A stretch of 47,986 nt of DNA from Bacteroidales bacterium (lineage in GTDB: Bacteria; Bacteroidota; Bacteroidia; Bacteroidales; AUK083): positions 1 to 47,986 of the forward strand of contig JAGGUV010000064.1 in the NCBI GenBank assembly GCA_021158345.1, written 5' to 3'. The notes under the pieces were generated by a model. The model ran no database searches and was not told where the DNA came from. It saw only the letters and a program-made list of their open reading frames with translations. Every line of letters starts with the position of its first letter. Within the stretch, counting starts at the first letter, position 1. This document shows positions 794 through 9,302 of this stretch, piece by piece. Made by a program: the position numbers and the translations under genes.

Positions 794-1462
794 CTATTCA
801 GTTAGTTTTTTCAATTTATTATAGTCAATAATCCTTATCATTTTACCTGGCACTTCAATTATCCCTTCATCTTTCATTTCTTTTATTGTACGTGCCAATG
901 ATGGACGTGTTACACCAAGATAATCAGCTAATTCCATTTGTGTTTTTCCTAAAAAAATTGTTTTGTTTTTGCTTTTCTTCGATAATTCGATAAAATGGCT
1001 TGCTAACTTTGCTTTTATTGTTTTTAACGATAAAAATTTTAACTTTTTTGTTACAAGCACAAATCTATTTGAAACAATATTCAAATAATTTTCTAATATT
1101 TTTTTATTCGAATGAAATAATCGAAGCAAATCATCTTTATGAATAATTAAAATTTTAGACTTTGTATTTGCCACAATATTAATTAATAAATTATTTTGGT
1201 CGGCAAACAAAAAAGCTTCGGCAAAAGTATCAGGAGCAAAAACATCTTCTATTTTAATAATTTTATCATTATAGTCAATAGCTTCTCCCCTAATGCTTCC
1301 CTCAACTAAAACAAATAAATTATTACACTCTTCGCCACTAAATGCAATAATTTCTTTAGGCTCATAAGTTTTTATTTGATGATGAGTAGATTTTAGAATA
1401 TCTGATACTTCATCTGAATTAAATCCCTTAAAAATAGGAGTTTCTGAAATTTGTGAATACAT
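794..1462 (-). CDS. Crp/Fnr-family transcriptional regulator (HcpR-like by context)
   Basis: 222 aa with cNMP-binding fold (SGEECNNLFVLVEGSIRGEA) and C-terminal HTH (MELADYLGVTRPSLARTIKEMKDEGII); divergent from ferredoxin/hcp cluster. Confidence 0.85.
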   Translation of the reverse strand: MYSQISETPIFKGFNSDEVSDILKSTHHQIKTYEPKEIIAFSGEECNNLFVLVEGSIRGEAIDYNDKIIKIEDVFAPDTFAEAFLFADQNNLLINIVANTKSKILIIHKDDLLRLFHSNKKILENYLNIVSNRFVLVTKKLKFLSLKTIKAKLASHFIELSKKSKNKTIFLGKTQMELADYLGVTRPSLARTIKEMKDEGIIEVPGKMIRIIDYNKLKKLTE

Positions 1463-1584: not shown

Positions 1585-1773
1585 ATGAAATTTAAAGTAG
1601 ATCAGGAATTATGCGTAGGCTGCGAAGCTTGCGAAGGCGTATGTCCAAAAATTTTTAAAATGCAAGAAAACGGTAAAGCTCATGTTATTGCAGATCCCGA
1701 TTCTGCAGATATTGAAGCTGATGCTCTTGAAGCTGAGGAAGCATGTCCTGTACAGGCAATATCTCATGAATAA
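1585..1773 (+). CDS. 4Fe-4S ferredoxin
   Basis: 62 aa with CVGCEACEGVCP and a distal EEACPVQAI cysteine: monocluster ferredoxin pattern. Confidence 0.9.
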   Translation: MKFKVDQELCVGCEACEGVCPKIFKMQENGKAHVIADPDSADIEADALEAEEACPVQAISHE

Positions 1774-1813: not shown

Positions 1814-3517
1814 ATGGTAATTAAAGGAGATACAAAAATTAAAACTGCTTTGGAAAAATATCCCGAGCTTAAAGATGTATTAATAAAATATTCTAAAAAA
1901 TTTAAAAAATTAAATAATAAATTTATTTTTAATACAGTAGCAAAATGGGCAAATTTTAACGATGTTGCCAAAATAGGCAATATATCTATTTGCGACATAT
2001 TACACACTGTAAACGAAGCTATCGGAGAAGAAGAAAATCTGGAAAAAATATTCCCTGATTGTATTAAGGAAACTAAAAGTATAGAACCTAAAACTAAACC
2101 TGAATGGTATGATGAAATAAAACAATTTATTATTTACGATGTAAGAGAAGAAGATGGTTATTTCTTCCCTAAAATTATTGAAAAACTAAGACAATTAAAA
2201 CCGTCGCAAGCATTAAAAGTTGTTAATAGTTTCGACCCTCTTCCATTAAAACGCATGTTTGACGAAAAAGGAGGAAAATATTTCTCTGAAAAGATTACTG
2301 ATACAGAATATCATCTCACAATTTTACCAACCGGAGATGATTTGGCAATAAATCCTGAAAAAGATTGGAAAGAACAATTAGACCGCTTCCCTGAGCTGAA
2401 TGTTATTGGTATGCAGGAAGATCCTTTTGAGTTAATAATTAAAAATGCTCAGAAGATAAAACAGGGGCAAGGATTTGTTCTTTTGCAGGTATTTAAACCA
2501 ATACCACTTATTAATATGCTTACGCAGATGGGGTTTGATGATTACACAGAAGAAGATGTTGAAACAGGTATTTTCAAAATATATTTTTATAAAACACCTG
2601 CAAAAAACAAAATTGAAGTAAGTAATAAAAAAATACCGGTTGTTATTCAATCTGCCACACCTGTTACTTATCCAATAATCATGAAAATGCTTCACTCTGA
2701 AGAATTAATGAGCCGAATTGATATTAAAGAATTAAAAGTTTGGGAAGAAACGGAAAAACATATGGCTTGGGTTGTAAACGGAAAGGCAGATATTACTTTT
2801 TCTGCTGTAGCTGCTGCTGTAAAACTATATGCTTCAGGTGCCGATATAAAAATGGTGTCTGTTGATATTTGGGATAATTTTTATTTGCTTACTAACGGAT
2901 ATAAAGCTGATAGTTTTGAAGACATTAAAAATCACACTATTGAGACTCCTTTATTTAAAGGAGCACCTCCTACTGCTGTTACAACATCATTAATGAAAAA
3001 ATTAGGATACAATCCTGATGATTTTAGTTTTCATTATGATAAACCTTTTGGTCGCCCCAATAAAATTAAAGATGATTTTATTATGGGAAAAGCAGACACC
3101 GTACTTCTAAGAGAACCTGAAGCAAGTTTTGCTCTTTTCAATGCAGGCGATACTGCTCACGAATCTCTTTCATATAGTAAATTATGGAAACAAGTAGATG
3201 AAAAAAACAATCGTTTACCAAATGCAGGCTTAATTTTTAAAAATGATTTCTTGAAAAACCATCCTGATGTTGCTGAACTTTTTATTAAAGAATTAAAAAA
3301 GGCAATTGATTGGGTTAATAATAACAAAAAAGAAGCAGCAATGATGTCTTATGACATTCTCGGACAATCGCCAGAAGCTGTTGAATTATTTTTAAACAGA
3401 GCAAAATTTGAACATGTTCCGACAAAAGATATTTTAGATGAAATAAAAAATTATCTTAAATTGGTTCGTAATGACGGAAATGTTGATGAAGAAAAACTAA
3501 AAAGATTATTTTTGTAA
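1814..3517 (+). CDS. DUF1858-like + two DUF2249-like + NMT1/SsuA-like substrate-binding domain fusion protein
   Basis: 567 aa; N-term 'TKIKTALEKYPELKDVLIKYSKKF' DUF1858-like; two DUF2249-like blocks ('YDVRE...ALKVVNSFDPLPLKRMF' and 'KIKQGQGFVLLQVFKPIPLINML'); C-term 'WVVNGKADITFSAVAAAVKLYASGADIKMVSVDIWDNFYLL' SBP-like; no signal peptide. Confidence 0.7.
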   Translation: MVIKGDTKIKTALEKYPELKDVLIKYSKKFKKLNNKFIFNTVAKWANFNDVAKIGNISICDILHTVNEAIGEEENLEKIFPDCIKETKSIEPKTKPEWYDEIKQFIIYDVREEDGYFFPKIIEKLRQLKPSQALKVVNSFDPLPLKRMFDEKGGKYFSEKITDTEYHLTILPTGDDLAINPEKDWKEQLDRFPELNVIGMQEDPFELIIKNAQKIKQGQGFVLLQVFKPIPLINMLTQMGFDDYTEEDVETGIFKIYFYKTPAKNKIEVSNKKIPVVIQSATPVTYPIIMKMLHSEELMSRIDIKELKVWEETEKHMAWVVNGKADITFSAVAAAVKLYASGADIKMVSVDIWDNFYLLTNGYKADSFEDIKNHTIETPLFKGAPPTAVTTSLMKKLGYNPDDFSFHYDKPFGRPNKIKDDFIMGKADTVLLREPEASFALFNAGDTAHESLSYSKLWKQVDEKNNRLPNAGLIFKNDFLKNHPDVAELFIKELKKAIDWVNNNKKEAAMMSYDILGQSPEAVELFLNRAKFEHVPTKDILDEIKNYLKLVRNDGNVDEEKLKRLFL

Positions 3518-3545
3518 ACTAAAGTAATAAATGAATAAAATTCTT

Positions 3546-3569
3546 TTCAGGTGAATAAATATACCTGAA
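3546..3569. promoter_or_regulatory. Inverted repeat TTCAGGT-N10-ACCTGAA upstream of hcp
   Basis: Perfect 7-nt arms in the 88-bp gap before hcp; possible operator or leader hairpin. Confidence 0.4.
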
Positions 3570-3605
3570 TATTAAAAAAATTAAATTAATAAAGGAGAAA
3601 AAATT

Positions 3606-5258
3606 ATGAGTATGTTTTGTTATCAATGTCAGGAAACAGCCAAAGGAACAGGTTGCACTGTAAGAGGTGTTTGCGGTAAAACCGATGATTTGGCAAATAT
3701 GCAAGATCTTTTAATATTCGTATTAAAAGGTATTTCTATCTACAGCACTAAAGCACGCGAGCTTGGAATAGAAAATGCAAAAGTTAATAAATTTATCTAC
3801 GAAGGTTTATTTATGACAATTACTAATGCAAATTTTGATAAAGAGAGATTTATAGAAAGTGTTAGAGAGGGATTAAAACTTCGTGAAGAAATTAAAAATG
3901 AGCTTATAAAAGCTGGTGGCACAATTCCTGAAGATTTACATGAATCTGCTACTTGGTATGGTACATCTGTTGAAGAATTTGAGGCAAAAAATACTTCAAT
4001 TGGAGTTTTGGCAACTGAAGATGAAGATATTAGAGGATTAAGAGAATTAGTCATTTACGGATTAAAAGGTCTATCAGCTTACACAGAGCATGCCTTTAAT
4101 TTAGGGTTTGAAGATGTCAGTCTTTATGCTTTTATGCAAAAAGCTTTGGTTGAAACAACAAACGATGCTTTGAGTGCTGACGATTTGGTTGCATTAGTTC
4201 TTGAGACAGGTAAATTTGGTGTTGATGCAATGGCTCTTTTAGACAAAGCAAATACAACAGCTTACGGTAATCCTGAAATCACAAAAGTAAATATTGGTGT
4301 TAGCGACAAACCAGGTATCTTAATAAGCGGACACGATTTACGTGATATGGAAGATTTGTTAGAACAGACACAGGGTACAGGAATTGATGTTTACACTCAT
4401 GGCGAGATGTTACCTGCAAATTATTACCCTGCTTTTAAAAAGTTTAAAAATTTTATAGGTAATTACGGTAATGCTTGGTGGAAACAAAAAGAAGAATTTG
4501 AAACTTTTAACGGTCCAATTTTATTTACAACAAATTGTATTGTACCGCCTAAAAAAAATGCTTCATATAGCGACCGCGTATTTACTACCGGGACATCAGG
4601 TTTTCCCGGATTTAAACATATTCCTGAAAGAACTGAAGGAGGACAAAAAGATTTCTCTGAAATTATTGAAATGGCAAAAAAATGCAAACCGCCCGTTGAA
4701 ATTGAAAAAGGCGAAATAATTGGTGGCTTTGCTCATAATCAGGTTATTCAGCTTGCTGATAAAATTGTTGATGCAGTAAAAACAGGTGCTATTAAAAAAT
4801 TCTTTGTAATGGCAGGTTGTGACGGTAGAATGAAAAGCAGAGAATATTATACTGAATTTGCACAGAAATTACCTCACGATACTGTAATACTAACAGCAGG
4901 TTGTGCAAAATATCGTTATAACAAACTCAAATTGGGTGATATTAATGGTATACCGAGAGTGCTTGATGCAGGTCAATGCAACGACTCTTATTCATTGGTT
5001 GTTATTGCTCTTAAACTTAAAGAAGTATTTGAACTAAACGACATTAACGAATTACCTATTAAGTATAATATTGCATGGTATGAGCAAAAAGCAGTTATTA
5101 TTCTTCTGGCATTATTATATCTCGGGGTTAAAGATATTCATACAGGACCAACTTTACCTGCTTTCTTTACTCCTAATATTCTTAAAGTACTTCAAGATAA
5201 ATTCGGGCTTGCTACAATAGGTACAGTCGATGATGATATTAAAATGTTTATGAATTAA
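3606..5258 (+). CDS. hcp: Hydroxylamine reductase / hybrid cluster protein
   Basis: [26 protein letters not shown]-terminal cluster motif, 'FTTNCIVPP', '[17 protein letters not shown]', '[12 protein letters not shown]'. Confidence 0.97.
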
Positions 5259-8047: not shown

Positions 8048-8086
8048 TTAACCTTCAGAAGCTTGCTTTTGAAGGTTAATTTTTTT
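8048..8086. terminator. Terminator hairpin overlapping the 3' end of the MFS gene
   Basis: TTAACCTTCA ... TGAAGGTTAA followed by a T-run; sits between the convergent CMD and MFS genes. Confidence 0.7.
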
Positions 8087-9302
8087 TACAATTTAGCTTA
8101 TTTACAAAAACGAAACTTGATAAAATTATTAATGAAACAGAACTAAATACTGCAATATAGCCAAATTGACTTATTAATAATCCTGCTATTAGTGGAAAAA
8201 TTGCTATTAATATGCTTCCTGCTCCTGAAATTCCCGTATATAATGCCCTGTTTTCATTTGTTGATATTTCCATTAAAACACCATTATTGCTTATCTTATA
8301 AATAGCTACAAAAACTCCTGACAAAACAAACAAAAATTGATAAAGGAATTGACTGGCGCCAAAAAATAATGCCATAACAGGTAATGAAGTTCCTATTATC
8401 AAACTGAATTTTAATAAAGTTTTATAATTAATTTTATGTGATATTTTAAAAAATGTTAAACTTGCAAATAGCATTCCTATTGTTCGAAACACCAAAAAAT
8501 TACCAATAAGTTCATACGATAAACCAAATTTATCTTTAGCAAAAAGTATTAAAAAAGGCAGAATACTTATTCCCAATCCTAAACTGTTTATGATAAGTAA
8601 ATAATTTCTTAAGTTTGGATTCTTTTTTATTTCAGATGGAATTAATCGAAAAAATTCAATTAAATTTTTTTTATAAATAACTTTTGAAGGAAATTCTCTA
8701 ATATTCCAAAATCCCGCTGAAGCAACCAGTAAAAGAAAACCTGCACAAAAAAATAATACCACATAATTGTTAGGATAATCAAACTGCTTTATTAAATATC
8801 TGACAAGGAATGCAGAAAAAAACATACCTATACTATTAATTGTTTGCTTTAACGAAAAAAAATGTTTCCTGCTTTCTTGCCTTACAGATTTTCCAAAAAT
8901 ATCATTATATGATACTCCTGAATACGAACCACTTAAAGCAAATATTGAAATTAATAAGAATATTAAAAAAATAATCAAATTATCGCTTAAAATTCCGGAA
9001 ATATAAAAAATAATCGACAAGCCTATTATTGAAAAAGCTCTTAGATTTATTCCTATGAGTAAAAACTTTTTTTTATATACTTTTTTGGAAAGGCTTGATG
9101 CAAATATTAATTGAAATATACTTGTTCCTCCTAACATAATTGCAGTTAATAAACCAAGATGAAATGCACTCCCACCGGCTTTTATCAACATAGAAGGAAT
9201 AATTGTTCCAACATCCATAAAGTTTGAAGCTAAAGCCAGAAACACAGCATGCCATAAAAAACTTCTAAAATTTATTTTTGATTGTTGTAATGATATTTGC
9301 AT
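8076..9302 (-). CDS. MFS transporter
   Basis: 408 aa, about 12 hydrophobic segments, MFS-like fold. Confidence 0.8.
   Translation of the reverse strand: MQISLQQSKINFRSFLWHAVFLALASNFMDVGTIIPSMLIKAGGSAFHLGLLTAIMLGGTSIFQLIFASSLSKKVYKKKFLLIGINLRAFSIIGLSIIFYISGILSDNLIIFLIFLLISIFALSGSYSGVSYNDIFGKSVRQESRKHFFSLKQTINSIGMFFSAFLVRYLIKQFDYPNNYVVLFFCAGFLLLVASAGFWNIREFPSKVIYKKNLIEFFRLIPSEIKKNPNLRNYLLIINSLGLGISILPFLILFAKDKFGLSYELIGNFLVFRTIGMLFASLTFFKISHKINYKTLLKFSLIIGTSLPVMALFFGASQFLYQFLFVLSGVFVAIYKISNNGVLMEISTNENRALYTGISGAGSILIAIFPLIAGLLISQFGYIAVFSSVSLIILSSFVFVNKLNCKKN

Follow-up and report, generated by a model that had tools for sequence, protein, structure and literature searches.

The 47,986-nucleotide stretch of Bacteroidales DNA analysed here (the window) carries, on the forward strand at positions 1814 to 3517, an open reading frame for a 567-amino-acid protein in which a DrpB-type module (DUF1858-DUF2249-DUF2249) is joined to a substrate-binding protein (SBP)-type domain. 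We tentatively favor the view that this fusion is a cytosolic, NasS-like ligand receptor with a DrpB-type output and a redox input through ferredoxin and cysteines, serving the handling of nitric oxide (NO) or nitrite. The receptor reading draws on similarity to DrpB, the lack of a signal peptide and of transporter genes, an HcpR2-type motif, linkage to ferredoxin, adjacency to hcp, co-occurrence with a quinol NO reductase (qNOR), invariant residues of the SBP part, and the precedent of NasS.

Domain architecture of the fusion protein

Pfam placed a DUF1858 domain at residues 3 to 62 (positions 1820 to 1999, E = 2e-12) and matched DUF2249 in two stretches (E = 5e-15); a DUF2249 search of the genome scored both copies, at 2165 to 2323 and 2414 to 2590, over the curated cut-off. 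The SBP-type domain, NMT1/SsuA-like, spans residues 274 to 567 (2633 to 3514). Pfam NMT1 matched residues 311 to 508 above its gathering score (E = 3.5e-5), and NCBIfam SsuA_fam matched with an E of 1.1e-9, below its cut-off. All four domains lie on the forward strand, in the composition that the original prediction had given.

By sequence, a search of the PDB returned only weak matches, with NrtA not among them. AlphaFold models built on alignments of 10 to 13 relatives were of low confidence, with a mean pLDDT of 67 for the full protein and 61 for the SBP part. Foldseek with the latter nevertheless gave a best E of 6e-6 (probability 1.00), with SBP-type folds making up almost all of the 50 top matches, including 3qsl, 3hn0, 3un6, Thi5, TauA, and SsuA. 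Because TM-scores reached only 0.3 to 0.4, the model is weak; it supports the SBP fold class proposed earlier for the C-terminal domain, and no detail of it is to be relied on.

Cytosolic SBP folds are often enzymes, and the top Foldseek matches include two such single-domain proteins, Thi5 (pyrimidine synthesis) and structures labelled "Enzyme of biosynthetic pathway," which we read as MqnA (menaquinone synthesis). The fusion might by analogy be a ferredoxin-driven enzyme that converts a metabolite during nitrogen-oxide stress, and E312, E314, K315, and H316 are invariant among the fusions. However, Thi5, the HMP-P synthase, has a cysteine-rich motif in its SBP fold, whereas the SBP domain of the fusions has no conserved cysteine. 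The binding proteins SsuA and TauA match equally well, and biosynthetic genes are absent beside the fusion. Overall, we regard an enzymatic role as improbable.

Cytosolic location and comparison with transporter proteins

An in-frame TAA lies 8 codons 5' of the ATG of the fusion gene, and within residues 1 to 40 the most hydrophobic 19-residue window scores -0.28 on the Kyte-Doolittle scale, compared to +1.3 to +2.0 in three secreted relatives. The upstream stop and the hydropathy of the first 40 residues thus revealed no export signal, so a signal peptide was not missed, and the protein is cytosolic as judged from its sequence. None of the open reading frames in the window's first 12 kb encodes an ABC permease or ATPase; in the sequence read near related fusions, phmmer detected no such genes save the end of an ATPase-like gene about 5 kb away in one locus (L047). 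Both the missing N-terminal signal and the missing transporter genes had been predicted, and both were confirmed, the latter within those 12 kb.

The closest separate SBPs in the plasmid collection (L017 to L019; Aliarcobacter, Sulfurimonas, and Paraclostridium plasmids) are about 25% identical to the fusion and have W310, W353, E434-P435, and A471-G472 in common with it. They also occur in settings with NnrS, Crp/Fnr, or hcp genes, and permease and ATPase genes lie beside them, which would favor the fusion serving as the SBP of an ABC importer whose genes lie elsewhere. Unlike the fusions, however, they have hydrophobic N-terminal segments and lack H316, R414, and R433. Fusions have neither signal peptides nor adjacent transporter genes, and most relatives carry an N-terminal ferredoxin. 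In addition, a profile of the SBP domain found only two matches at E ≤ 1e-40 in 295 genomes of the class; one was the window protein, and the other has an open frame as long as a fused form (659 amino acids). A part in an importer is therefore very improbable, and the fusion was rejected as a transporter component for want of a signal peptide and of transporter genes. ABC importers of the same SBP subfamily are encoded together with NnrS on the Arcobacter plasmid (L017, 5149 to 10982), where a TonB receptor is also present, and on the Sulfurimonas plasmid (L018, 3773 to 8870); their substrate may hint at the ligand of the fusion.

Gene order and a predicted HcpR2-type site

The fusion gene is located between a gene for a 62-amino-acid ferredoxin in an FrdX-like position (1585 to 1773, forward strand; Fer4_13, E = 9e-16) and hcp, encoding hybrid cluster protein (3606 to 5258, forward strand; Prismane, E = 1.6e-180, with NCBIfam hydroxylamine reductase above its cut-off). 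Gaps of 40 and 88 bases separate the three genes, and no terminator-like sites were found between them; the single such site found lies inside the fusion gene, at chance level. Ferredoxin, fusion, and hcp are probably carried on one transcript. The small inverted repeat TCAGGTGAATAAATATACCTGA occurs at 3548 to 3569, between the fusion and hcp.

Divergent from this operon lies a gene for an HcpR2-like Crp/Fnr regulator (794 to 1462, reverse strand; Pfam cNMP_binding and HTH_Crp_2). Its second-best PDB match is the Crp-family regulator 1o5l, which we take to be a Thermotoga protein. In its recognition helix, VTRPSLAR, Pro replaces the Glu181 of CRP, a change described for HcpR2 (PMC1274295). Between the regulator and ferredoxin genes, upstream of the latter, the palindrome TGTAACACTTGTTACA (1503 to 1518) matches the published HcpR2 motif GTAACnnnnGTTAC exactly (PMC1274295) and constitutes a predicted site. 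L004, L006, and L007 have the same palindrome core at the corresponding position, the spacer being different in L006 and L007. As TGTAACANNTGTTACA and a reversed control pattern each occur once in the genome, this count alone is no evidence; the place and conservation of the site are. No exact HcpR2-type sites were found before ferredoxin-fused genes. Overall, the locus resembles the HcpR2 regulon of anaerobes (frdX and hcp) in having the motif, a ferredoxin gene, hcp, and an HcpR2-like gene in divergent orientation, but here the fusion gene separates ferredoxin from hcp.

Farther downstream, about 3 kb past hcp, the window encodes a major facilitator superfamily (MFS) transporter (8076 to 9302). 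In L043, a gene for another MFS transporter with a near-identical N terminus (3388 to 4656) immediately follows a ferredoxin-fused fusion gene, and a link between this transporter and the fusion is possible.

Distribution of the fusion and its ferredoxin

Fusions were found in Bacteroidota, Neomarinimicrobiota, Cloacimonadota, and Calditrichota, while Vulcanibacillus has a shorter DUF2249-SBP form and fragments occur in Candidatus Tenebribacter and Desulfurellales. Within the same order, 19 of 247 sampled genomes carry the fusion. In 16 of these, as well as in one genome outside the sample, an N-terminal ferredoxin forms a fourth domain whose four cysteines are conserved in 17/17. Ferredoxin-fused forms constitute one group in the tree (support 89/100); the window protein groups with Neomarinimicrobiota and Cloacimonadota proteins of the three-domain form (100/99), a placement that suggests transfer of the gene between phyla. 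Ferredoxin and fusion very probably work together, given that one branch has them in a single protein and another has their genes side by side.

Two cysteines, C60 inside the DUF1858 domain and C83 just after it, are invariant in all 27 fusions having DUF1858. The domain had been described as lacking its usual CxxC; that motif is indeed absent, but these two separated cysteines are retained. The DUF2249 repeats have no conserved cysteine. Consequently, the label "redox/sulfur-carrier-like" given earlier to these domains is only partly upheld, in that C60/C83 and the ferredoxin fused in most relatives agree with it and the DUF2249 repeats do not.

Ferredoxin and C60/C83 also fit the main rival explanation, in which the fusion is not a sensor but a redox or cofactor-maturation partner of metalloenzymes that handle NO or nitrite. 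In that case, electrons or Fe-S units would pass through ferredoxin and C60/C83, docking to the target enzyme would fall to the DUF2249 repeats, and a cofactor or metal complex would occupy the SBP domain in place of a signal. In three loci (L044, 8864 to 11568; L049, 2948 to 5195; L048, 5518 to 6139), fusion genes lie beside genes for ParA/NUBPL-type NTPases with ferredoxin domains, NifX-like (Nitro_FeMo-Co) proteins, and DUF59 proteins, assigned by Pfam on the L044 copies only. This neighbor set looks like metal-cluster assembly and speaks for a maturation role, as does the phenotype of Thermus drpAB mutants, in which NarG is made but has roughly one-tenth of its activity (PMC6282519). Assembly genes adjoin the fusion in few loci only, however; an SBP fold would be an unusual scaffold for electron transfer; and deletion of DrpB clearly alters transcription (PMC6282519). 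We therefore rate a maturation partner as a real but rather unlikely explanation.

Relationship to DrpB and other nitrogen-oxide genes

Fusion residues 2 to 260 align with Thermus DrpB at about 25% identity. The two have DUF1858-DUF2249-DUF2249 in the same order and a nitrogen-oxide context in common, with the Thermus gene lying just downstream of the nar operon. We take COG4309, a family that appears in regulon studies cited below, to be DUF2249. In Thermus thermophilus, DrpB is cytosolic and partly membrane-bound, and double deletion of drpA and drpB renders nar expression independent of nitrate; the sensing model is a proposal by the authors of that study, in which DrpB is also reported to play a part in the activity of the reductase (PMC6282519). 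Unlike the fusion, Thermus DrpB is without an SBP domain, ferredoxin, C60, and C83, and it works with DrpA. A DUF2249 search found no gene for DrpA (single DUF2249) in the window genome, which holds only the two copies of the fusion. Because C60 and C83 are not conserved in Thermus DrpB, the fusion branch may work differently.

Related genes recur in similar settings. Members of COG4309 share a transcript with norB or are predicted to belong to the NsrR regulon (PMC1274295); Haloferax induces DUF2249 genes when it denitrifies (PMC11218638); and in Bradyrhizobium, NnrR controls a DUF1858 gene listed near nirK (PMC6710368). For the fusion, the HcpR2-type site, hcp, and the co-occurrence with qNOR supply a context in which it would take part in nitrogen-oxide-responsive expression. 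The three-domain DrpB type has already been published; our search of the open-access literature turned up no description of a form fused to an SBP domain or a ferredoxin.

Association with hcp, qNOR, and NrfA

In the window and in L004 to L007, hcp is next to or near the fusion. Across the order, hcp is present in 3/19 fusion genomes compared to 106/228 others, and in none of the 16 with the ferredoxin-fused form. The ferredoxin-Hcp operon named in the original prediction is therefore a feature of this genome and its close relatives, whereas hcp is missing from most of the order's fusion genomes, many of which have qNOR instead. With 16 of 19 genomes lacking hcp, a role as general Hcp partner was rejected. 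Genomes with the close qNOR and no fusion also tend to lack hcp (present in only 1/10), so the depletion may be a lineage effect. More broadly, this qNOR clade and hcp hardly ever share a genome among the 247, with or without the fusion, and may be alternatives.

A qNOR of one clade is encoded in 10/19 fusion genomes and 10/228 others (P = 6e-8), a comparison in which the query was picked as the neighbor of a fusion and the genomes are not independent, 15 families having the fusion and 6 of those the close qNOR. All 10 of the qNOR-bearing fusion genomes are among the 16 with the ferredoxin-fused form. The qNOR gene adjoins the fusion in G009 (L059) and lies one gene away in G393 (L047), with a hemerythrin/PAS gene between; one such case falls within the order sample and one in a genome outside it. 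An Rrf2-like gene, Pfam-confirmed in L059 only, stands beside both loci. NrfA was rejected as a partner, as it is not enriched (9/19 fusion genomes versus 98/228 others). At least one of hcp, qNOR, and NrfA is present in 18/19 fusion genomes versus 153/228 others.

The SBP domain and a proposed mechanism

R414, R433, and H316 are invariant in the SBP part of the fusions. At these positions the three nearest transporter SBPs have, respectively, S or a gap; A, V, or L; and L. The two arginines would point to an anionic ligand.

Pfam NMT1_2, presumably the family of NrtA/NasS type, did not match the fusion at E ≤ 1; in one relative it matched with an E of 0.0068, below its cut-off. With no such match and NrtA missing from the PDB matches, membership in the NasS/NrtA family by sequence is unsupported. 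The likeness to NasS is one of design: NasS, of the NasS-NasT system, is an SBP-type protein that lacks a signal sequence and serves in the cytosol as a receptor for nitrate/nitrite (PMC3795266). NasS differs from the fusion in being single-domain and NrtA-like with NasT as its partner, whereas the fusion best matches NMT1/SsuA and is joined to DrpB-type domains.

In the receptor reading, a DrpB-type nitrogen-oxide response protein would have gained its own ligand-binding receptor. The pair of SBP lobes would bind, inside the cell, a small and probably anionic metabolite of nitrate, nitrite, or NO handling, much as NasS, with no transporter involved, binds nitrate or nitrite. Closure of the lobes would be relayed to the DUF1858-DUF2249-DUF2249 module, serving as output; in Thermus DrpB, this module affects both transcription of nitrate-respiration genes and reductase activity. 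Ferredoxin, separate here and fused in most relatives, and the two invariant cysteines would feed in the redox or Fe-S state. The target would be an NO- or nitrite-handling system, namely, Hcp here and quinol NO reductase in many relatives.

Counting against the receptor reading, the fusion has no DNA- or RNA-binding output domain, and in its genome DrpA is lacking and neither NrfA nor the close qNOR type was found. The earlier proposal that the protein is no transporter part but a soluble sensor or carrier of a ligand is supported by the absence of a signal peptide and transporter genes, the DrpB-type module in front, and invariant lobe residues unlike those of the nearest transporter SBPs. 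A stronger claim, which we consider doubtful at present, is that the fusions form a new receptor class for a nitrogen-oxide-derived metabolite, in which a periplasmic-type fold works inside the cell, a DrpB module and built-in ferredoxin read ligand and redox state together, and Hcp or quinol NO reductase is served according to lineage.

If this is true, NasS would be joined by another cytosolic receptor of the SBP type that serves nitrogen-oxide metabolism. DUF1858/DUF2249 proteins recur in gene sets for denitrification and NO stress, and a natural fusion to a ligand-binding domain offers a direct way in; the ligand of the SBP lobes, once found, would indicate what at least one branch of this protein group senses.
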